In this document: positions 3,677 to 27,933 of the stretch, one piece after another | Position numbering within the stretch: the stretch's first letter is position 1 | Layout: each line of letters starts with the position of its first letter | IMG/VR virus record: IMGVR_UViG_3300031513_000005 | Span: 1 to 27,933 of that record | Strand: one strand, 5' to 3' | Length of the DNA stretch: 27,933 nt | DNA from: a virus | The notes under the pieces: model-generated | Database searches by the model: none | The model's input: the letters and a program-made list of their open reading frames with translations, nothing else | Told to the model about the DNA's origin: nothing | Made by a program: the position numbers and the translations under genes

Positions 3677-4085
3677 CCTTCACCAACCTTTCTGAGATGT
3701 CGTATTCTCGATGTTTCCGCAGCGCCCCGCGCCGCGTGCGCAGCCAGCGCGCGGTCGAGGGCGTGCGCAGCACATCGAATACTGCCAGTCCGTCGAGGAA
3801 GAGAATAGCAGCAAACGTTGGAACTGTCAAGCGCCTCGCCGCGTCAACGACGGATTGCGGCAGAATGGTGGTGCGGTACGTATCGGATCGGATCGAGCGA
3901 CGCTTGACTTCCAGCGCGGCGACCGGTCGCCCGCCGTCAACGATCAGAAAATCCAGCGGCGCGTAGGCGCCCAGTCGCACAAGCGCCAGATCGAGACGCT
4001 GCGGGTAGAGCAGCAGCAGCGCCGTCTGCGCGATCAAGTGTTCGTAGGGCAGACCGAACGCGGCTTGTTCATCAAACGAGCGCAC
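3639..4085 (-). CDS. Small PD-(D/E)XK nuclease-like protein
   Basis: 148-residue protein with a minimal PD-(D/E)XK core: Asp45 in APLDFLIVDG, then Glu59-Val-Lys61 in AALEVKRR, the usual D...E-x-K spacing across a beta hairpin. A later hydrophobic strand (TFAAILFLDG) and basic C-terminus fit this fold. Such proteins act as restriction-like, resolvase-like or repair nucleases; the substrate cannot be told from sequence. A GTG start at 4085 lies nine bases after the primase-helicase stop, and the 3' end overlaps the polymerase start by 38 bp, so it is embedded in the replication operon. A Holliday-junction resolvase role would suit the position but is inference. Confidence 0.6.
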   Translation of the reverse strand: MRSFDEQAAFGLPYEHLIAQTALLLLYPQRLDLALVRLGAYAPLDFLIVDGGRPVAALEVKRRSIRSDTYRTTILPQSVVDAARRLTVPTFAAILFLDGLAVFDVLRTPSTARWLRTRRGALRKHREYDISERLVKVEEVHQRQRRSA

Positions 4086-4094
4086 CGCCGCCCC

Positions 4095-7010
4095 CTAGTG
4101 TGCAGCAGTAGCAGCCGTCACAGCAGCAGTCTTTCTTTTATTTCTATGATGTGTTGTGACAGCGGTCTGTTGTGACGACCCAAGGAACTCGAACACCGGC
4201 GTATTCCGCTCTTGATGACGCTTGCGGATGCCGGTCGCCCGCGCCCGCGCCCGGTCAACGTTGACCAGCCGGTAGACGCGCGTTCTCTTCCCGCCTTCTA
4301 CGCGCTGTTGTTTCCCCTCGATGCCGACGCCGATGCGCGCAAAAAGCGCGCTGACGAAGGACATCGGTTTTTGTCTGAAATCGGCGCGCACTTTGATCCC
4401 CAGCGCGGCTTGGATCAGCAGCCGGTTGCGGTCTACGAGATCGAGAAACTCTTCGGTGATTACAATTTCTGCACCCTCTTCGATCCGCAGCCGCAGCGCG
4501 GTCAGCAGCGTGTTGAACCAGAACGCGAACAGCGCGAACAGGTTGCGGTCGGCGCTGAACCGCCGCGTGCGCTCGGTCTCGTCCAGCGCTTTTGCAATCT
4601 CTGCGTCCTCCACCGCCGCGAACCGTTGCGCTTGTCCGTATGCGCCGCGCTCGTCGTCGAGCACCAGATCGGCATCGACATCGATCCCGTAGCGCTCTTC
4701 TAACTCAACCTTCCTCTCCGCGTCGCGCTTCTCTTCTTCCGTCTTCGCCTCGTCCGGCGTCGGCGCAGCAGCGATGCGTTCAGCGCGGGCACGCTCTTGC
4801 GCCTCGCGCTGCTCGCGCAGTGACTTCGCCAGTTCGCGGCGACGGTCGGTCGGCAGTTCCGGCTTATCGCGGTCATCCCAAACCTTGACGCCTTCAGTCG
4901 CGTATGCGCCGGTAAGGTTCTCAAGAAACCGGTTCTTCTGCGCGGCGGTCTTCGCTTTGACGACGCAGTAGAGGTCAAGGTAGACGCGATCCCATTCCGT
5001 CGCCGGTTCCGCCGCGCCGGACGCCCGTGAAATGCGGAAGTCCTCTTCCAGTTCGCGCAGTTTGGTGAGGTCGCGGTAGGCGTCGGGCGAGGTCGGTTCG
5101 TTCATTCGCTTCGTCTCGACGTAGACGTTGATCTCACGCTCAAACGGGTTGCGGATACGCCCCAACTGCTGGCGGAAATCGTCAACGTCGCCGACGCCGA
5201 CGCCGTTGCGTGCGATGCCGAACAACGCGAACCCCTCAACGTCAATCGAGACGCCGGTGCCGACCGACGGCGAGTAGATGAACACATCAACGTCTCTCAG
5301 AATAGCGTTGATGCGCTCCAGCGTCTCGTTGTTATTCTCGCTTGTTTCCGACGTAATCTTCAGTATTCGCGCGTCCGGCAGAAACCGGCGGTAGAACAGT
5401 TCGGCTCGGTCGGCGTCGGCGCGGGTGTTGCACGCGATCGCGATTTTACACCCGTTGGAGTTGTACCAATCCAGCGACTTCTGGAGGACATCTTCCGGCG
5501 ACGGCAGCAGTACGAAGTGATCAATCATTCGATGCGCGTACTCGTTCTCAACGTAGGCTATCGGCTGGTCGGGAAACGCAGATTGAATAAACGTCAACGT
5601 CGCCTCGCCAACGTCGGCGTCGGCGAGGATGATCAACCGCGCCTTGCGGAGATGCTCTATCAACGCACCGAACGCCTGAACTTTTCTGTTTTTGAGATTG
5701 CGGTCGCCGACGATTGCCTTCAGCACTTGTTCGATCTCGTCGATGATTATGAGTTCATACGGTTCTTTCACTTCGAGTTTGTCGAGACTGTGGATGGTGG
5801 TAGCGATACGCGGCGCGTCGGTGATCCACTTCCCGTCTTCGTAGTACGGCGTGAGGTTAAGGCGCGCCGCGCTCTGGCGCACCAGCGAGACGCGGTGCCC
5901 CACCGACAACACGCGCGGGTAGCACTTCGCCGCCTCCGCCAACCACTGTGTTTTCCCGGTTCCTTTTGCGGAACGAATTACAACGATGTTGGGGTACTGA
6001 TCGTCGGGGTCAATCTCGATGTCGAGGTAGCGCTGATTGATGCGCATCGCGTCGGGCAGTTCCGGCGACGTAACGTACCCGCCGCGCAGACCGGGGATCG
6101 TCCCCTCGAACCCTCGCTCGCGCGCCAAATTGACCAAAACACCGATCCCGCTATCGACGTGATCGGGTTTTTGGTGCTTTTCCCAATCATACGTCCACTG
6201 ATCCAATACCTCAGCCGCGTCCTCTTCCGGCAGCGCGGACTGGATCGCCCAGACCGCTGCTAACCACTTATTGTACTCCAGACCGTCTCCCGGTATATAC
6301 CGCAGCAACGTCTCGATTGTCTCGCGCGTCGCTGCGCCCCCCGTCCGGCGCGGGGCGAGCAGCGGGCGACGGGCGAACGCGGCGAATTCGGTGAGGTCGT
6401 AGTAGCGGTCGCTGTTGCGGATAATCGCAACCGGTTTCTTTGTCGGGCGCTGCTTCCAGTTGTACGATCCGATCACGCGAATCGACCGTGCGGCGTCGCT
6501 GGTGTTGTCCAACGTCCAGCCGTAGCGCGCTGCTGCGAGACGCAACTGTGCTTCAACGCCCGCTTGTACCGGCGCAACGTCATTGACCCAACGCGGTTCG
6601 CGCAGAACCCACATCGGCATCAGACCGTTGCCGGTGTGGACGATCAGCGTCGGTTCCGGCAATCCGCTTTCTGTGATGAGTTTCAGCGCGTCGTCTTTGG
6701 ATCGAGGCAGCGTCTGCGTTTTGTGAGCGTCGGATTGGATATCGATGTCAGCGGTGATGACACGCTGGCGGTAGGCGATCTCTGCACCGCCGGATGAACC
6801 GCGATCTGGTTTCACGTATTGCGAGGAACGTTTAATATAGATGTCGTAATTGAGGTTTCGTTTAATATGATCAGCGATCTCGGCGCGTTGTGAGAGCGAG
6901 AATGTCTGGCAGTCGAAGCGACCATCGGCGCGCTTGACGCTGACGGTCGTATAGGCGGCGGTGTCATCGCCGTAGAGTAAGTCAAGGTAATCCGTAATTG
7001 TGATAGACAT
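4095..7010 (-). CDS. AEP-type primase fused to SF2 helicase
   Basis: 971-residue replication initiator-like fusion. Residues about 1-215 resemble archaeo-eukaryotic primases: metal-binding DID (88-90), a GNG strand-turn (127-129), and SIRVIGSYNWK (176-186) matching the basic R...G..N.K motif. Residues about 228-300 look like a primase C-terminal linker domain. Residues 340-635 are an SF2 helicase of the type seen in origin-binding proteins: Walker A SAKGTGKT (347-354), Walker B IIIDEIEQ (421-428), motif V-like SPSVGTGVSI (580-589), motif VI QQLGRIRN (614-621). A charged, coiled-coil-prone stretch follows (about 690-790). About the last 21 residues are encoded by a 44-bp repeat and its flank. 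The ATG at 7010 follows GGAGGAGAAAGGAG. Confidence 0.85.
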   Translation of the reverse strand: MSITITDYLDLLYGDDTAAYTTVSVKRADGRFDCQTFSLSQRAEIADHIKRNLNYDIYIKRSSQYVKPDRGSSGGAEIAYRQRVITADIDIQSDAHKTQTLPRSKDDALKLITESGLPEPTLIVHTGNGLMPMWVLREPRWVNDVAPVQAGVEAQLRLAAARYGWTLDNTSDAARSIRVIGSYNWKQRPTKKPVAIIRNSDRYYDLTEFAAFARRPLLAPRRTGGAATRETIETLLRYIPGDGLEYNKWLAAVWAIQSALPEEDAAEVLDQWTYDWEKHQKPDHVDSGIGVLVNLARERGFEGTIPGLRGGYVTSPELPDAMRINQRYLDIEIDPDDQYPNIVVIRSAKGTGKTQWLAEAAKCYPRVLSVGHRVSLVRQSAARLNLTPYYEDGKWITDAPRIATTIHSLDKLEVKEPYELIIIDEIEQVLKAIVGDRNLKNRKVQAFGALIEHLRKARLIILADADVGEATLTFIQSAFPDQPIAYVENEYAHRMIDHFVLLPSPEDVLQKSLDWYNSNGCKIAIACNTRADADRAELFYRRFLPDARILKITSETSENNNETLERINAILRDVDVFIYSPSVGTGVSIDVEGFALFGIARNGVGVGDVDDFRQQLGRIRNPFEREINVYVETKRMNEPTSPDAYRDLTKLRELEEDFRISRASGAAEPATEWDRVYLDLYCVVKAKTAAQKNRFLENLTGAYATEGVKVWDDRDKPELPTDRRRELAKSLREQREAQERARAERIAAAPTPDEAKTEEEKRDAERKVELEERYGIDVDADLVLDDERGAYGQAQRFAAVEDAEIAKALDETERTRRFSADRNLFALFAFWFNTLLTALRLRIEEGAEIVITEEFLDLVDRNRLLIQAALGIKVRADFRQKPMSFVSALFARIGVGIEGKQQRVEGGKRTRVYRLVNVDRARARATGIRKRHQERNTPVFEFLGSSQQTAVTTHHRNKRKTAAVTAATAAH
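4117..4160 (+). repeat. 44-bp inverted-ended repeat, copy G (inside a gene end)
   Basis: Left arm GTCACAGCAG (degenerate), core containing TTCTTTTATTTCTATGAT, right arm GTGTTGTGAC. It lies within the last codons of the primase-helicase, encoding part of its Thr/Ala/Lys-rich tail. An extra half-site TGTTGTGAC follows at about 4167-4175, and the left flank (4100-4116) resembles that of copies C and D. Confidence 0.85.
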
Positions 7011-8747: not shown

Positions 8748-9073
8748 CTCCGCCTCCGTTCCACAAACCAAGCGATCTTGTCGATCAGCGCCGGTAGCAG
8801 CGTCGGCGCAACGACGCCCGCGACAAACGGGACGTAGCCGGAGTAGCCGACCAGCACGCCCGCGCCCGCACCGACCAGCACGCGCCCCAACGCGCCCAAC
8901 TCGACGCTGTGCTGTTCGGGATCGTAACGTGGGAGAAACACCTCGCCGTTGGTGTCGGCGAGGTACGCCGTCGCCGCGCCGATTGCGCCGAAGACCGCGT
9001 TCCAGACGTAATCGATTGCGGTCAGCCCGTTGTGTCCCGCTGCCAACAGCCGGAAGATTTCAATGATGTCCAT
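8744..9073 (-). CDS. Membrane protein, holin candidate
   Basis: 109-residue protein with hydrophobic segments at about 22-38 (WNAVFGAIGAATAYL) and about 62-95 (LGRVLVGAGAGVLVG, then YVPFVAGVVAPTLLPALI), separated by a polar loop (RYDPEQHSVELG), and a basic tail (ERRRR). The glycine/alanine-rich segments and the position right after the endolysin suggest a holin or lysis regulator. ATG at 9073, preceded by GAGAGGAG, is preferred to the upstream ATG at 9115 because it has the ribosome binding site. It overlaps the endolysin stop by 14 bp. Confidence 0.65.
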   Translation of the reverse strand: MDIIEIFRLLAAGHNGLTAIDYVWNAVFGAIGAATAYLADTNGEVFLPRYDPEQHSVELGALGRVLVGAGAGVLVGYSGYVPFVAGVVAPTLLPALIDKIAWFVERRRR

Positions 9074-18057: not shown

Positions 18058-18101
18058 GTCACAACACCTGCATCTCTTTTATTTATAGAGCGTGTTGTGA
18101 C
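18058..18101 (+). repeat. 44-bp inverted-ended repeat, copy A
   Basis: Perfect 10-bp inverted ends GTCACAACAC and GTGTTGTGAC around a 24-bp asymmetric core containing TCTTTTATTTATAGAG. One of three copies in the gap between the major capsid gene and the next gene (about 260 bp, no other content seen). Confidence 0.95.
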
Positions 18102-18140: not shown

Positions 18141-18184
18141 GACACAACACCGCATCTTCTTTTCTTTCTATGCAGTGTTGTGAC
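18141..18184 (+). repeat. 44-bp inverted-ended repeat, copy B
   Basis: Ends GACACAACAC (one mismatch to consensus) and GTGTTGTGAC; core contains TCTTCTTTTCTTTCTATG. Same orientation as A and C, separated from A by 39 bp. Confidence 0.95.
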
Positions 18185-18241: not shown

Positions 18242-18285
18242 GTCACAACACAGCATCTTCTTTTAATTAAGAGATGTGTTGTGAC
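18242..18285 (+). repeat. 44-bp inverted-ended repeat, copy C
   Basis: Perfect 10-bp inverted ends; core contains TCTTCTTTTAATTAAGAG. It lies 13 bp beyond the major capsid stop. The left flank (18221-18241) reads TCATCAGCAGTAGCAGC, shared with copy D. Confidence 0.95.
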
Positions 18286-23928: not shown

Positions 23929-23972
23929 GTCACAACACTCTATAGAAATAAAAGAGAAGAAAGTGTTATGAC
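23929..23972 (-). repeat. 44-bp inverted-ended repeat, copy D (opposite orientation)
   Basis: Ends GTCACAACAC and GTGTTATGAC around a core that on the minus strand reads TCTTTTATTTCTATAGA, so it is inverted relative to the other copies. The adjoining 23973-23993 is the reverse complement of the left flank of copy C. Confidence 0.95.
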
Positions 23973-24004: not shown

Positions 24005-24039
24005 AAAAAAAAAAGCCCCGCGCTTGCGGGGCGCGGGGC
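24005..24039 (-). terminator. Strong rho-independent terminator
   Basis: On the minus strand, stem GCCCCGCG / CGCGGGGC followed by a run of ten T, just after the stop of gene 24056-24349. It lies immediately before repeat copy D in the direction of transcription and insulates the late operon promoter. Confidence 0.95.
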
Positions 24040-24055
24040 TTGAAGGTGTTGCTGG

Positions 24056-24349
24056 TTAGATGAGGTTCATCCTTTTGAGCACCGGGCGGAACCCGCGCTG
24101 CGCAGCGGTTTCCAAACTGTCATACTCGAACAACGATGCGCAGTCGCCCTCACCCGGGACGTTTGACCAGTCGTAGACGTGGATGATAATTCTACCGTCC
24201 GACTTCCGGTACGCGCGGTAGATGAGACCGCGCCGGTCGTCTCTGTCCTCGCACTCGCCGAGTTTCTCGGCGTATATCTCGATGATTTCGTTCTCTTTGT
24301 GCTCCTCACCGACCCACAGTTCGTACCTTGGTAGGGGTTTACGTCGCAT
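24056..24349 (-). CDS. Small accessory protein, family B
   Basis: 97-residue protein of unknown function, one of at least five related genes in this arm. Family pattern seen here: an N-terminal YELWVGE, a glutamate-rich strand ending EKLG (aligned with E-F-D-G-E-x-L-G in relatives), then YRKSDGRIIIHVYDW, then a helix LETAAQRGFRPVLKRMNLI. The layout suggests a small alpha/beta domain; no catalytic motif is visible. ATG at 24349 follows GAGGAGGT. It has its own consensus promoter (24388-24416) and strong terminator (24005-24039), as in moron genes. An anti-defence or host-takeover role is possible but unproven. Confidence 0.8.
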   Translation of the reverse strand: MRRKPLPRYELWVGEEHKENEIIEIYAEKLGECEDRDDRRGLIYRAYRKSDGRIIIHVYDWSNVPGEGDCASLFEYDSLETAAQRGFRPVLKRMNLI

Positions 24350-24387
24350 TTCTGACCTCCTCTGCGGTGATTGATTATTGTGACTAG

Positions 24388-24416
24388 AGTATACCGCGCA
24401 AATCGCCGGTTGTCAA
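24388..24416 (-). promoter_or_regulatory. Promoter for family B gene 24056-24349
   Basis: Minus strand TTGACA (24416-24411), a 17-bp spacer ending GCGCGG, then TATACT (24393-24388). Confidence 0.85.
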
Positions 24417-24445
24417 GAGGTGAGTTTGAGAAGGTGGCGCGGGGC

Positions 24446-24489
24446 GTCGCAACAGCAGTCGTTCTTTTATTTCTATAGAGTGTTGTGAC
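24446..24489 (+). repeat. 44-bp inverted-ended repeat, copy E
   Basis: Left end GTCGCAACAG (degenerate), core with TTCTTTTATTTCTATAGA, right end GTGTTGTGAC. It lies just beyond the terminator of gene 24553-24891 on the minus strand; the flank after the right end (CACTGCTGAAAGCAGAAAC) resembles that of copy F. Confidence 0.9.
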
Positions 24490-24503
24490 ACTGCTGAAAG
24501 CAG

Positions 24504-24529
24504 AAACCCCGCCGGCACCGGCGGGGTTC
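24504..24529 (-). terminator. Terminator after gene 24553-24891
   Basis: Long stem AACCCCGCCGG / CCGGCGGGGTT around CA, followed on the minus strand by TCTGCTTTC. The T tract is interrupted; the hairpin itself is very stable. Confidence 0.75.
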
Positions 24530-24552
24530 TGGAGAGGGGAAGGGGAAGGAGG

Positions 24553-24891
24553 TTACGACAAAACGTACTCAACCAACCACCCGCGCCCGCCCGCCCGCGC
24601 TTCAGCGAGCGAGGCGTACACTTCATAGAAGTAGTACGTGCGCGGGTCTGGGGTCGCGTCTGGGTAGGGATCAACTTCCCACTCAATTTCTTGAATGTAG
24701 ACCGATCCGTCTTCCGCCTCGAAGACGAGGAAAAAGCCGCCGTTCGTCGCCGCCCGCTCCTTGTTCCACGCGGGCGTGTTGTCCCAAACGTAGGGGCGAC
24801 CAAGCGGGCGCGCTTTGATGCGTACTCGCTCGTAGTCCGCAACGCCGTTCTTCGGGATGGGCCCGTTGATGATGATCACATCTTGAAACAT
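24553..24891 (-). CDS. Small accessory protein, distant family B-like
   Basis: 112-residue protein, function unknown. The second half has the same order of elements as family B: a strand NGGFFLVFEAEDGSVYIQEI (aligned with YR-x2-DGR-IVVHV), a polar loop with DPYPDATPDPRTY, then FYEVYASLAEARAGG leading to the C-terminus. The first half (MFQDVIIINGPIPKNGVADY, then VRIKARPLGRPYVW) is distinct. It may be a remote member or a convergent look-alike. ATG at 24891 follows AAAGGAGG within the end of the preceding gene, so both are translated from one message starting at 25142. Confidence 0.7.
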   Translation of the reverse strand: MFQDVIIINGPIPKNGVADYERVRIKARPLGRPYVWDNTPAWNKERAATNGGFFLVFEAEDGSVYIQEIEWEVDPYPDATPDPRTYYFYEVYASLAEARAGGRGWLVEYVLS

Positions 24892-25107
24892 CTACGCCTC
24901 CTTTCCCCGCTGCGCGTCCTCGTACCTCAGCGTCTCGACCAGCCGCCGCGCCTCGGCTTCGGTCGGTCGCCAGCCGACCGGCTCGCCGCGGTACTCGACC
25001 GCGTAGTCGCGCGTCTCGCGGTCGAACAGAATGCGGAAGTCCCCGCCGGACGCAACGACAATTTCGCGCTCGCGTGCGGGTTTTGGCGCTGAACGTCGCT
25101 TGGGCAT
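24892..25107 (-). CDS. Small basic protein, unknown
   Basis: 71-residue protein with a basic N-terminus (PKRRSAPKPARERE, about 2-15), two short strands (FRILFDRETRDYAVEYRGEPVG split across a turn) and a terminal helix (TEAEARRLVETLRYEDA). This beta-beta-alpha pattern with a basic tail could bind nucleic acid, but no family is recognised. ATG at 25107 follows AAAGGAG. First gene of a two-gene unit with 24553-24891; the stop and next ATG are adjacent. Confidence 0.7.
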   Translation of the reverse strand: MPKRRSAPKPAREREIVVASGGDFRILFDRETRDYAVEYRGEPVGWRPTEAEARRLVETLRYEDAQRGKEA

Positions 25108-25141
25108 CAGATGCTCCTTTCCGGTAATCGATCACACTCAC

Positions 25142-25170
25142 AGTATACCGCACCCGGCGCGGGTTGTCAA
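25142..25170 (-). promoter_or_regulatory. Promoter for the 25107-24553 gene pair
   Basis: Minus strand TTGACA (25170-25165), a 17-bp spacer ending GTGCGG, then TATACT (25147-25142). It is followed by TGAGTGTGATCGATT (25140-25126), nearly identical to the leader of gene 26469-26825. Confidence 0.85.
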
Positions 25171-25208
25171 GCCCGCAAAATTCGCGGGAAAATATCGAAA
25201 ATTGGGTA

Positions 25209-25237
25209 TTGACAAGTCGCGCGGGGTGTGGTATAGT
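25209..25237 (+). promoter_or_regulatory. Promoter for gene 25282-25578
   Basis: TTGACA (25209-25214), a 17-bp spacer ending GTGTGG, then TATAGT (25232-25237). Divergent from the promoter at 25142-25170. Between the two, 25172-25188 is an imperfect palindrome with arms CCCGC / GCGGG around an A/T centre, a candidate operator. Confidence 0.85.
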
Positions 25238-25281
25238 ATAGTCACAGAAAACAAACACACAAACACAAGGAGGCACACAAA

Positions 25282-25578
25282 ATGGAGACGTACAAAATCT
25301 GGAGCGGAACTCGAACCTTTCTGCCGGGCGACGACAGTGAGTATACGGTTGAGGAGATTGTCGCTGAGGACATCGGATGGTTTATAGACTTGCCAGACGA
25401 CGGTTTTATTGGAAAAACGTACAGCGTCTACCGGACGGAGAGTGAGATCGTCATCCACATAGTTCAAGAAGCCGGTCTTGGCGACCCCAACACCGGATCA
25501 ATTCACCGCTACCGCAGCCTTGAGGAAGCGGCGGCAGACGGCTTCGATCGGGTGTTGAGGGAGATGCGACTCATCTAA
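25282..25578 (+). CDS. Small accessory protein, family B (plus strand)
   Basis: 98-residue family B protein, the only complete member on the plus strand. Matches to the 24056 gene: ETYKIWSG N-terminus, EEIVAEDIG strand, YSVYRTESEIVIHIVQEAG (the DGR turn is replaced by ESE), and SLEEAAADGFDRVLREMRLI, which closely resembles the 24056 C-terminus (both end in R/N-L-I). ATG at 25282 follows AAGGAGG. It is transcribed alone from 25209 to the terminator at 25596-25632, against its neighbours. Function unknown. Confidence 0.85.
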   Translation: METYKIWSGTRTFLPGDDSEYTVEEIVAEDIGWFIDLPDDGFIGKTYSVYRTESEIVIHIVQEAGLGDPNTGSIHRYRSLEEAAADGFDRVLREMRLI

Positions 25579-25595
25579 ACGACAACGACCGACCG

Positions 25596-25632
25596 AACCC
25601 CCGCGCCTCGCAAGCGCGGGGTTCTTTATTTT
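25596..25632 (+). terminator. Rho-independent terminator
   Basis: Stem CCCCGCGC / GCGCGGGG followed by TTCTTTATTTT, shortly after the stop of gene 25282-25578. Confidence 0.9.
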
Positions 25633-25652
25633 CACCCACCCGCGCCGCCGGT

Positions 25653-25696
25653 GTCACAACACAGCATCATCTTTTATTTCTATAGCGTGTTGTGAC
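25653..25696 (+). repeat. 44-bp inverted-ended repeat, copy F
   Basis: Perfect 10-bp inverted ends and a core with TCTTTTATTTCTATAG, closest to the consensus. It lies between two convergent terminators (25596-25632 on plus, 25711-25737 on minus). Confidence 0.95.
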
Positions 25697-25710
25697 AGCG
25701 CTGAAAACAG

Positions 25711-25737
25711 AAACCGCCAGGCGCGCGCCCGGCGGTT
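25711..25737 (-). terminator. Terminator after the clamp-like gene
   Basis: Stem AACCGCC / GGCGGTT with a GC-rich inner part, followed on the minus strand by TCTGTTTTC. Confidence 0.75.
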
Positions 25738-25756
25738 CCGGCGTTTGTACCGCGGG

Positions 25757-26404
25757 TCAGTCGCGCTTGACGAACGGGGTGACGGCGAACAATCTGCCCC
25801 AATCGTCGCGGAACGACAGCCATCCTTGTTCGTTCCGAAACACGCTGACCGCATCCCGCGCTCTGAACAGACGCAATCCTTCGCGCAACTGTCGGACGCT
25901 GTACCAGACCTTTGCGTTCGGCATCTTTCGCTGAAACAACTCGCTGCCGCGCTTTGGCGCGTCAACGAGTTCAACGAATTCGCTACTGCGTAAGGTTTTC
26001 ACGAGTTTCAGCGACGGCGCTTCGCACAGCAGCGTTGCGTCCGGCGGCAAGCAGCGCGGCAGAAACGACTCGATGCGTAGAACGCGGCACGCGAACGGCG
26101 GAAAACTCACAATGAGACGCTCAGAGCGATCCTCGTACTGTTCCCGCGTGACGAGATTGACAGCAGTCCCGTCAACCTCGATGTAGTCCAGATACACATC
26201 GTTCGCGAGCGCCGCCAGCGCCCTCGCGGTCGCGGGCGGGATCATCCCCTCGCCGCGAATATACTCGCTGCTCAGTCGGTACGCAACCAGCACCACGCCG
26301 TCGGACGCCATCAGCGTTCCGTTCGTCACGCGAACGCCCGCGTAGGCGGGCGTCTGGAGATCGAGGGCGACATTCAGAAACTGTGCGAGCATTGAGTCTA
26401 CCAT
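25757..26404 (-). CDS. Sliding-clamp-like protein, two-domain (candidate)
   Basis: 215-residue protein whose sequence pattern resembles DNA sliding clamps. Residues about 1-75 follow the clamp-domain order: helix LAQFLNVALDLQ, strand GVRVTNGTLMASDGVVLVAYRL (cf. the T-D-x2 strand of beta clamps), GMIPPATARALAALA helix, then LDYIEVDGTAVNLVT strands. The C-terminus (VWYSVRQLREGLRLFRA, AVSVFRNEQGWLSFRD, LFAVTPFVKR) looks like a second clamp domain ending with the usual proline-containing last strand. The size is close to T4 gp45 (two domains, trimeric ring). ATG at 26404 follows AAAGGAAC. It would complete the replisome encoded at the left end. Homology is inferred from pattern only. Confidence 0.5.
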   Translation of the reverse strand: MVDSMLAQFLNVALDLQTPAYAGVRVTNGTLMASDGVVLVAYRLSSEYIRGEGMIPPATARALAALANDVYLDYIEVDGTAVNLVTREQYEDRSERLIVSFPPFACRVLRIESFLPRCLPPDATLLCEAPSLKLVKTLRSSEFVELVDAPKRGSELFQRKMPNAKVWYSVRQLREGLRLFRARDAVSVFRNEQGWLSFRDDWGRLFAVTPFVKRD

Positions 26405-26425
26405 TTTCGTTCCTTTCTGAGTAAT

Positions 26426-26458
26426 AGAAAAACGCGGCGTGCGAGGGTTCGCAGCCGC
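26426..26458 (-). terminator. Terminator between family B gene and clamp-like gene
   Basis: On the minus strand, stem GCGGCTGCGA / TCGCACGCCGC (one bulge) followed by GTTTTTC. No promoter is visible between it and the clamp-like gene, so that gene may depend on read-through. Confidence 0.75.
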
Positions 26459-26468
26459 GCCTGTCGGT

Positions 26469-26825
26469 TTATTCCTCTTCCTCAACCCGCCGCAACCAAC
26501 CGTCCAAATCGTACGTCGGCGCGTCATATGCACCAACACGCACCAGATCGTTACGATAGTAAAACGCCGCGCGTTCAAGAGTGTTGTAGACCTCGACTAC
26601 GCCGATGTCGTAATCCCCCGCGCTCCAGTCACCGTAGCGGTGCTCGGCAACGACAATACGACCGTCAAGCGTTCGATAGAATGAACGTTCGGTGGGTTTC
26701 CCATCAGACACGCACCGCAGCGTTCCGAGATGTTCACCGTCAAACTCCAACCAGACGAACTGTGAAACGTCTTTATTGCCGTGAACCGCTCTCCAACCGT
26801 CCCAAACTCGAATTTTCGTAGCCAT
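26469..26825 (-). CDS. Small accessory protein, family B (longer)
   Basis: 118-residue family B protein. Matches to relatives: ATKIRVWDGW N-terminus, VWLEFDGEHLG strand, FYRTLDGRIVVAEHRYGDW core, and NTLERAAFYYRNDLVRVG helix; the remainder is an extra acidic tail (DLDGWLRRVEEEE). ATG at 26825 follows AGAAAGGAAC. A consensus promoter lies at 26868-26896. Acidic small proteins made from strong early promoters are typical of phage host-interaction genes, but no function is recognisable. Confidence 0.85.
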   Translation of the reverse strand: MATKIRVWDGWRAVHGNKDVSQFVWLEFDGEHLGTLRCVSDGKPTERSFYRTLDGRIVVAEHRYGDWSAGDYDIGVVEVYNTLERAAFYYRNDLVRVGAYDAPTYDLDGWLRRVEEEE

Positions 26826-26867
26826 AGCAGTGTTCCTTTCTATGTCGGTCAAGTCGATTACACTCAT

Positions 26868-26896
26868 ACTATACCACAACCCGCACCGTTTGTCAA
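26868..26896 (-). promoter_or_regulatory. Promoter for gene 26469-26825
   Basis: Minus strand TTGACA (26896-26891), a 17-bp spacer ending TTGTGG, then TATAGT (26873-26868). The leader TGAGTGTAATCGACT (26866-26852) matches that of the promoter at 25142. Confidence 0.85.
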
Positions 26897-26914
26897 TACC
26901 CAACTCTCAAGACA

Positions 26915-26945
26915 AACAAAAAGCGCCGGACGTTCGCCCGGCGCT
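26915..26945 (-). terminator. Rho-independent terminator after gene 26967-27293
   Basis: On the minus strand, stem AGCGCCGG / CCGGCGCT followed by TTTTTGTTTG; the next promoter begins about 20 bp later. Confidence 0.85.
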
Positions 26946-26966
26946 CTCCAACGTCAACCCGCACCG

Positions 26967-27293
26967 CTACCTCGCCAGCGCCCACACGCAACGCGCCAGC
27001 GCTTCAGAAAGCGTTGCCGCGTCTTCCTCATACTGCGCCAGCGTGCCCAGACCTTTATGCCAATACGCCACCTCGACGCGCCAACCGCCGCTGCGCTGCT
27101 CGATCTCGACGCACACGACGCGCGGGAGCGCGAACAGCGCGTCGAGCGGCTTGAGCGCGGCGGTGTGGATGTCAAGTGCGAGCGCGTCGATGGCGTCGCT
27201 TGCGCGGGCGACGGTGATGATGCGGTCGCACTCGCCCGCGTCGGTCAGTACGACGCAGATAGCGTGCGGGTGTCGTTCAAACTGGAGTTTCAT
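26967..27293 (-). CDS. Small accessory protein, possible distant family A
   Basis: 108-residue protein. The C-terminal half (VVCVEIEQRSGGWRVEVAYWH, then DAATLSEALARCVWALA) has the same strand-G-W-strand-helix order as family A at 7195-8559 and as HicB-like folds, though identity is low. The N-terminal half (FERHPHAICVVLTDAGECDRIITVARASDAIDALALDI) is another strand-loop-helix unit, so the protein may be two copies of one fold. ATG at 27293 overlaps the previous stop (ATGA), so it is translationally coupled to gene 27290-27610. Function unknown. Confidence 0.7.
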   Translation of the reverse strand: MKLQFERHPHAICVVLTDAGECDRIITVARASDAIDALALDIHTAALKPLDALFALPRVVCVEIEQRSGGWRVEVAYWHKGLGTLAQYEEDAATLSEALARCVWALAR

Positions 27294-27610
27294 AAATCCC
27301 ATCCCTCGAACGTCCGCAGATTCGCCCGACGCGACGGGTGTAAGCCGATCTGCTCCAACACCCAACCAAACCTCCATCTGGCCTCGTCGAGTGTGGAGAA
27401 GAAACATACACACGCGCGCGCTTCCTCGCCTTTCAGACGGGTTTCGTGGATCACATAACGCCCGTCAGACGCTCGGTAAACATCGGTCTTTTTTACGAGT
27501 TTATCTGTCACTTCTTTGACCGAACCGACTTCCTCGCCGTCGAACTCGAAGAGTTCGACATTCTCGAATTCGTCGCCGCGCTTTACTCCTTCCCAAACCC
27601 GTACCCGCAT
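27290..27610 (-). CDS. Small accessory protein, family B
   Basis: 106-residue family B protein: N-terminal RVRVWEGVKRG, strand ELFEFDGEEVG, core DVYRASDGRYVIHETRL, helix STLDEARWRFGWVLEQIGLHP, and a short extra tail. ATG at 27610 follows AAGGAGG. It is transcribed together with 26967-27293 and ends at the terminator at 26915-26945. No promoter is seen between it and the partial gene upstream, so the unit probably starts beyond the right edge. Confidence 0.82.
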   Translation of the reverse strand: MRVRVWEGVKRGDEFENVELFEFDGEEVGSVKEVTDKLVKKTDVYRASDGRYVIHETRLKGEEARACVCFFSTLDEARWRFGWVLEQIGLHPSRRANLRTFEGWDL

Positions 27611-27632
27611 TTTGAACCTCCTTTACAACGAA

Positions 27633-27660
27633 GGGGCGATCCGGCGAACCGGAACACCCC
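27633..27660 (-). other. Intergenic stem-loop without T tract
   Basis: Twelve-base arms GGGGTGTTCCGG and CCGGATCGCCCC (one mismatch, one wobble) around TTCG lie between the partial gene and the start of gene 27290-27610. There is no T run, so it may be an RNA processing or stability element rather than a terminator. Confidence 0.45.
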
Positions 27661-27666
27661 GAACTG

Positions 27667-27933
27667 CTACTCGTCCAGACCGACTGTGAGCGGCGGGATG
27701 AGACCCGCTTTCCTGAGTTCCCGCCAGAACATCGCCGCCGCTCCATTCACCCCTCCCATCGAGGGGAAGACGTGGACATAAGCATATGTCGCCTCGTTCT
27801 CCCAACACGACCACCGGATAACGTGCACCACTATTCGCCCATCCGGGGTGCGGTAGAACGTCGTTTGAGTTCCTCTACTGTTCTCCTCTTCCCAGCACGC
27901 GCCGAGGGTCTCACCCTCGAACTCTTCGTACTT
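27667..27933 (-). CDS. Partial small accessory protein, family B, cut by right edge
   Basis: An open frame of 88 codons enters from the right edge and stops at TAG 27669-27667. It carries the family B signature: KYEEFEGETLG, then FYRTPDGRIVVHVIRW, then a helix MFWRELRKAGLI. About 20 N-terminal residues (the R-V-W-x-G region of relatives) should lie beyond the window. It is missed by start-based ORF finding because its start is absent. Function unknown. Confidence 0.8.
   Translation of the reverse strand, partial: KYEEFEGETLGACWEEENSRGTQTTFYRTPDGRIVVHVIRWSCWENEATYAYVHVFPSMGGVNGAAAMFWRELRKAGLIPPLTVGLDE

Follow-up and report, generated by a model that had tools for sequence, protein, structure and literature searches.

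The right arm of a 27,933-nucleotide stretch of viral DNA (IMG/VR record IMGVR_UViG_3300031513_000005; hereafter, the window), which also codes for terminase, portal, major head protein, tape measure, DNA polymerase, and a helicase-like replication protein, holds a family of small paralogous proteins of ∼100 residues. Judged by profile comparison, these phage proteins are stand-alone versions of the C-terminal β5-α domain of EXLDI proteins (TIGR04342), and we tentatively propose that they are accessory binding proteins, made early, that serve host takeover or counter-defence.

Paralogous Proteins in the Right Arm

When nine right-arm open reading frames (ORFs, named here by their first coordinate) were compared all against all with phmmer (E-values refer to this nine-sequence set), the claim of a first-pass annotation that at least five of them are paralogous was borne out: 24056, 25282, 26469, 27290, and 27667 form one family, linked by pairwise similarity beyond chance. 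The pairs 24056/25282 and 24056/27667 have E-values of 1.6e-10 and 6e-10, 26469/27290 and 26469/27667 of 4e-10 and 3e-9, and the weakest member pairs, 25282/27667 and 25282/27290, of 0.004–0.007; ORFs 26967 and 25757 fall outside the family. ORF 24553, which had been listed as a possible sixth member, has no detectable pairwise similarity to the members (best E 0.028). The profile of its own family scores 37.4 against the main-family profile (maximum 18.5 in 100 column-shuffles), its AlphaFold model has the same order of strands and helix, and on the strength of profile comparison and predicted fold it is a remote sixth member. The proteins are as follows:

24056..24349, minus strand: member a, subtype T7, 97 residues, own promoter and terminator
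24553..24891, minus strand: remote sixth member b, 112 residues, predicted topology as in the main family, follows 24892 in an apparent operon
25282..25578, plus strand: member d, subtype T2, 98 residues, own promoter and terminator
26469..26825, minus strand: member e, subtype T4, 118 residues, leads an apparent operon that includes ORF 25757
27290..27610, minus strand: member g, subtype T14, 106 residues
27667..27933, minus strand: member h, subtype T1, N terminus lost at the contig edge

The start of 26469 was moved to the ATG at 26825 because the listed TTG start at 26903 sits upstream of the promoter of this gene. Members do lie on both strands, but 25282 is the single plus-strand member here.

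Relationship to EXLDI Proteins

Library searches with 81 members returned zero to scattered weak matches in Pfam, PHROGs, PADLOC, and PDB sequences. In NCBIfam, EXLDI is the only family that recurs: 25 of the 81 match TIGR04342 at E ≤ 0.1, the best at 2.3e-5, and the best bit score, 24.7, stays below the curated cut-off of 32 bits. Aligned with hhalign, the EXLDI C-domain and the phage family profile score 54.4, compared with a null maximum of 14.1 in 100 shuffles. EXLDI genes were found in 19 of 301 Chloroflexota genomes, and in the same draw of genomes the phage family profile matched in four, in each case inside an EXLDI gene. The two groups share F-x-G-x-x-L-(G/A), Y-x-x-Y-x-T-x-x-G-(K/R)-(I/F)-x-(V/L)-H, and a W over a β-sheet core. 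EXLDI, the family matched, is functionally uncharacterised; a limited literature search found no paper on the phage family and nothing on topic for EXLDI. Separately, a scan of viral contigs independently yielded a full EXLDI-like protein (L106).

Cellular EXLDI proteins are likely autoregulated repressors of an exporter, because of their N-terminal stretch, the palindromes upstream of their genes, and the ABC ATPase downstream. The N-terminal stretch we take to be a ribbon-helix-helix, from a pattern applied by eye to 20 homologues; palindromes resembling TATACGTATA were seen, also by eye, in the promoters of several cellular EXLDI genes (loci L170–L183); and in 10/14 EXLDI loci an ABC ATPase is indicated by a Walker A motif 159–663 nt downstream on the same strand (the scan started from known EXLDI positions, since the gene caller recovered 4/14, and one locus, L182, is of the stand-alone type of the Chloroflexota protein P0002). 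This suggests that the domain common to phage and EXLDI proteins is the non-DNA-binding half of an exporter regulator. In the window members the domain's first strand stands at the very start of the protein, with no N-terminal ribbon-helix-helix ahead of it; the phage proteins also lack the C-terminal end of EXLDI, and their genes are multiplied, with none adjoining an ABC transporter.

Should the EXLDI C-domain sense a small molecule, the phage copies might act as ligand traps, each subtype sequestering its own host signal molecule. A Walker A motif downstream in most of the loci is the layout of a ligand-responsive exporter regulator, but EXLDI has no known ligand and the conserved residues (W12, G14, G31, G52, and A82) appear structural, and we regard ligand trapping as quite improbable.

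Predicted Fold and Its Likenesses

The AlphaFold model of the main family (predicted local distance difference test [pLDDT] 94.5, predicted template modelling score [pTM] 0.84) has strands at residues 8–15, 20–36, 40–49, 54–62, and 70–76 and a helix at 79–93; that of 24553, for which 14 sequences from its own family were used (pLDDT 82.9, pTM 0.75), has strands at 3–12, 21–37, 50–59, 64–72, and 84–92 and a helical end at 95–111, in the same order. The domain is thus confidently predicted to consist of five strands and a helix. No Foldseek match in PDB or BFVD reached E ≤ 0.001. In structural comparison the nearest solved folds, at weak Z, were two kinds of nucleic-acid-binding domain: both models brought up the WGR domains of PARP proteins, aligned across almost all of the domain (24056: Z 5.2, 78 aligned residues, root-mean-square deviation [rmsd] 3.5; 24553: Z 5.2, 83 aligned, rmsd 3.6), together with PUR domains (Z 5.9, 65 aligned; Z 4.6, 53 aligned).

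Strand order and final helix are alike in the predicted models and in WGR (PF05406; PARP1/2/3) and PUR domains, but Z is weak and the phage proteins have neither a W-G-R motif nor a Pfam match to WGR: PF05406 is absent from the 23 Pfam families listed for the 81 members at E ≤ 1. A WGR profile of eight sequences scores 20.7 against the family, compared with a null maximum of 15.4 in 60 shuffles, at an hhalign probability of 8%; the EXLDI C-domain does not rise above the null against the same profile, and an earlier comparison with a single WGR sequence was negative. Here "WGR-like" describes the modelled shape and implies no membership.

These likenesses bear on a reading in which the proteins are phage-internal nucleic-acid binders of WGR/PUR-like shape that bind phage or host DNA or RNA and aid phage replication or transcription, with no defence target. 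The two models, made separately, agree in listing PARP WGR and PUR domains, the WGR profile exceeds its null, and in five of the 13 contigs sampled below the helicase gene has a divergent subtype next to it. Set against this, all Z-scores are under 8, a range that the tool takes to mean, possibly, a shared arrangement; the profile probability is low and does not extend to EXLDI; the members are acidic (median isoelectric point 4.7 and median net charge −6.7 per 100 residues for 111 members), unlike typical DNA binders; and their presence differs among contigs, unlike that of a core function. We consider nucleic-acid binding of this kind rather unlikely, though the strongest of the competing readings.

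The first-pass annotation had recommended comparison with anti-CRISPR, anti-restriction, and DNA-mimic folds. No known anti-defence family was matched in the Pfam, PHROGs, PADLOC, NCBIfam, and PDB sequence searches. As regards DNA-mimic anti-restriction proteins, which are marked by strong negative charge laid out like that of DNA, the observation on the family is the net charge and isoelectric point given above. Chains with anti-CRISPR titles did no better than unrelated ones in the structural comparison: 7eni and 8k4m (Z 4.2 and 4.1; 24056 model) and 6exp (Z 3.8; 24553 model) were set aside because their Z-scores are below or level with those of unrelated structures.

Subtypes and Age of the Paralogs

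A terminase search gave 59 distinct IMG/VR loci, most of them >80% identical. Iterated profile search of related loci found 111 family members, falling into 38 clusters at 75% identity (weak members with E above 1e-4 were left out, and one truncated member, L028:2373, was dropped later). All 23 larger contigs chosen have at least one member, in a set that was not blind, as 22 of the 23 already had a match. In a sample of 13 contigs, consisting of the window and 12 others (some in part only), cutting at 50% identity separates 14 subtypes, with 2–6 per contig, and no contig repeats a subtype. Since subtypes are common to related phages and none occurs twice in a contig, duplication predates this phage: the paralogs are long established, have stayed distinct, and are present in differing combinations between phages. 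The earlier picture of repeated duplication within one phage is not supported as it was put, with the same subtype occurring twice in 0/13 contigs. Gene order, compared between contigs of related phages, suggests one circular map in which the family array would have the terminase gene on one side and the replication genes on the other.

Rate of Change

The paralogs are real, lie outside the head-tail genes, and diverge far faster than core genes: reciprocal-best family pairs between contigs (999 pairs, identical sequences left out here and below) have a median identity of 54%, versus 92% for terminase and capsid. The median ratio of nonsynonymous to synonymous substitution rates (dN/dS) is 0.29 (maximum 0.87), compared with 0.087 and 0.088 for terminase and capsid, and there is no sign of positive selection in the dN/dS of family pairs. 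The neighbours evolve equally fast (24892, 0.269; 26967, 0.271; ORF 25757, 0.256; the value for 24553 is 0.151); the whole arm is therefore fast, and the family is not singled out. Selection against a variable host target, put forward on the first pass, is not supported by these values. The equal rates of unrelated neighbours would fit drift in an unconstrained arm, with old duplicates that have subdivided minor roles and change fast through weak constraint on the arm as a whole. Purifying selection still acts on the family, however, and most members retain promoters (see below), and we judge drift unlikely.

Promoters and Timing

Promoters and terminator-like hairpins in the right arm are as follows:

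24388..24416, minus strand: σ70-like promoter of 24056 (TTGACA-17-TATACT)
25142..25170, minus strand: σ70-like promoter of 24892-24553
25209..25237, plus strand: σ70-like promoter of 25282 (TTGACA-17-TATAGT)
26868..26896, minus strand: σ70-like promoter of 26469
24013..24041, minus strand: terminator-like hairpin after 24056
25599..25621, plus strand: terminator-like hairpin after 25282
25710..25739, minus strand: terminator-like hairpin after the 26469-25757 unit
26917..26950, minus strand: terminator-like hairpin after 26967

Separate promoters, which the first-pass annotation had ascribed to the members, are thus present for 24056, 25282, and 26469, each with a near-perfect TTGACA-17-TATA promoter and a terminator-like hairpin closing its unit; 24553 shares its promoter with 24892, and none is visible in the window for 27290 and 27667. 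The window has nine promoters of the TTGACA-17-TATA kind, versus 0.1 in shuffles. With at most one mismatch and a distance of at most 150 bp upstream as the criterion, a promoter was found for 68/104 members, at a median of 42 nt ahead of the start, compared with 1/2080 shuffled upstream regions (two members with <120 bp upstream and duplicate upstream regions were left out). The same criterion gave 0/24 for TerL, 0/37 for capsid, 0/14 for tape measure, and 26/27 for the neighbour 24892. The natural inference from these sequences is that the right arm is an early region read by the host polymerase.

Plasmid and Stand-Alone Cellular Relatives

Relatives, all hypothetical proteins, were found on four plasmid records (E. 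coli NZ_OY019090, Halomonas NZ_CP080628, Shewanella NZ_CP050315, and Ahniella NZ_CP027861), and P0002 likewise has the domain; in a 25-sequence set the E-values of these proteins against the phage profile run from 3e-7 to 2e-4, and they share with the phage members the motifs F-x-G-E, (R/K)-T-x-G-(K/R), and R-x-W-x-G-E. These relatives differ in being single copy and, in three of the four plasmid proteins, in having ∼140–150 extra N-terminal residues. In E. coli the gene is carried in the leading region of a conjugative plasmid, with psiB/psiA on one side and the relaxase/mobilisation genes on the other, and plasmid leading regions are reported (PMC11541004) to be a hotspot of anti-defence genes. 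By analogy, this setting may hint at an anti-defence role, and it is a hint only because it comes from one plasmid and a remote homologue.

Possible Function

Our preferred, if tentative, reading, in which the right-arm proteins are accessory binders made early that serve host takeover or counter-defence, runs as follows. The proteins would be made soon after DNA entry from the host σ70-type promoters. EXLDI regulators are expected to recognise operators; with the ribbon-helix-helix lost or never present, the phage proteins would act as binding modules and not by operator recognition. Each subtype may bind a different host partner, be it a regulator, a nuclease, or a nucleic acid, and if the subtypes are so specific, the set as a whole would serve host takeover or counter-defence. 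The defence interpretation given on the first pass is in this respect plausible. By general analogy, clusters of anti-CRISPR and anti-restriction genes (compare PMC7648647 and PMC11541004) are similar in that they code for small acidic proteins, several per genome, in an accessory early region; the phage members differ in having no sequence match to described inhibitors in the libraries searched.

Several results weigh against this reading. Family dN/dS is below 1 and level with that of unrelated neighbours; 36/104 members have no detectable promoter; matches in PADLOC, a library of defence and not of anti-defence proteins, were scattered and weak; and the leading-region link concerns a single plasmid with a remote homologue. 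Of 37 terminase relatives found in genomes, 15 are from Chloroflexota, but at ≤41% identity and mostly on contigs of metagenome-assembled genomes; the family itself was found in 0/82 genomes of the order of Kouleothrix and in 0/10 genomes holding TerL relatives.

These results tie an orphan phage family both to plasmid proteins and to a family of regulators that is named but uncharacterised, and a confidently predicted fold and 14 subtypes are open to one-by-one testing. Should the proteins prove to be inhibitors, a single fold would serve many host targets, and new anti-defence proteins could readily be drawn from it; should they prove to bind nucleic acids, they would exemplify phage use of a WGR/PUR-like fold.

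Neighbouring Genes

The 71-residue protein encoded at 24892–25107 is conserved in the arm and has no clear family match. Related phages carry one copy, or two as in G006 and G014, of the fast-evolving ORF of ∼215 residues at 25757–26404; it looks sliding-clamp-like by eye only, and with no library match this label is a guess.

A 44-bp Palindrome

The window also contains a 44-bp palindrome, GTCACAACAC-N24-GTGTTGTGAC, which is specific to this phage group and whose 10-bp arms enclose 24 bp rich in A/T (TATAGAAATAAAAG-like); the arms are nearly invariant and their spacing nearly fixed. Its seven copies are:

4117–4160
18058–18101
18141–18184
18242–18285
23929–23972: downstream of 24056
24446–24489: between 24553 and the promoter of 24056, two arm mismatches
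25653–25696: between the ends of 25282 and 25757

Ten other stretches have 5 to 13 copies each, compared with one match in 20 window scans of a shuffled-arm control, and exact copies occur in 84 viral-contig stretches. The palindrome has no Rfam match, and it was rejected as a host repeat (0/400 Chloroflexota genomes). It is possibly a binding site for a phage protein. Systematic flanking of family genes was not supported overall: 38/111 lie within 250 bp of a palindrome, compared with a null mean of 30.4, and this count was reached in 81/1000 rotations. Flanking is limited to the divergent contigs L231, L054, and L076, and in L231 and L054 palindrome and family gene alternate about every 0.6 kb.

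A broader proposal would see here a hitherto undescribed superfamily for counter-defence or host takeover, in which phages and conjugative plasmids reuse the EXLDI sensor-like domain as stand-alone inhibitors with one host target per subtype, carried in promoter-gene-terminator cassettes that, in one phage subgroup, the palindrome may mark or help to exchange; we hold this to be unlikely, about on a par with drift.

In L231 (7296–11485), palindromes at 8990, 9596, 10205, 10824, and 11441 interleave four family genes, of which one is weak, in what resembles a cassette array. In L069, three palindromes (2760–2803, 2868–2911, and 3750–3793) lie in frame inside a 550-residue ORF (L069:2541–4193), and palindromes are found within genes at similar spacings in L074, L086, and L084.

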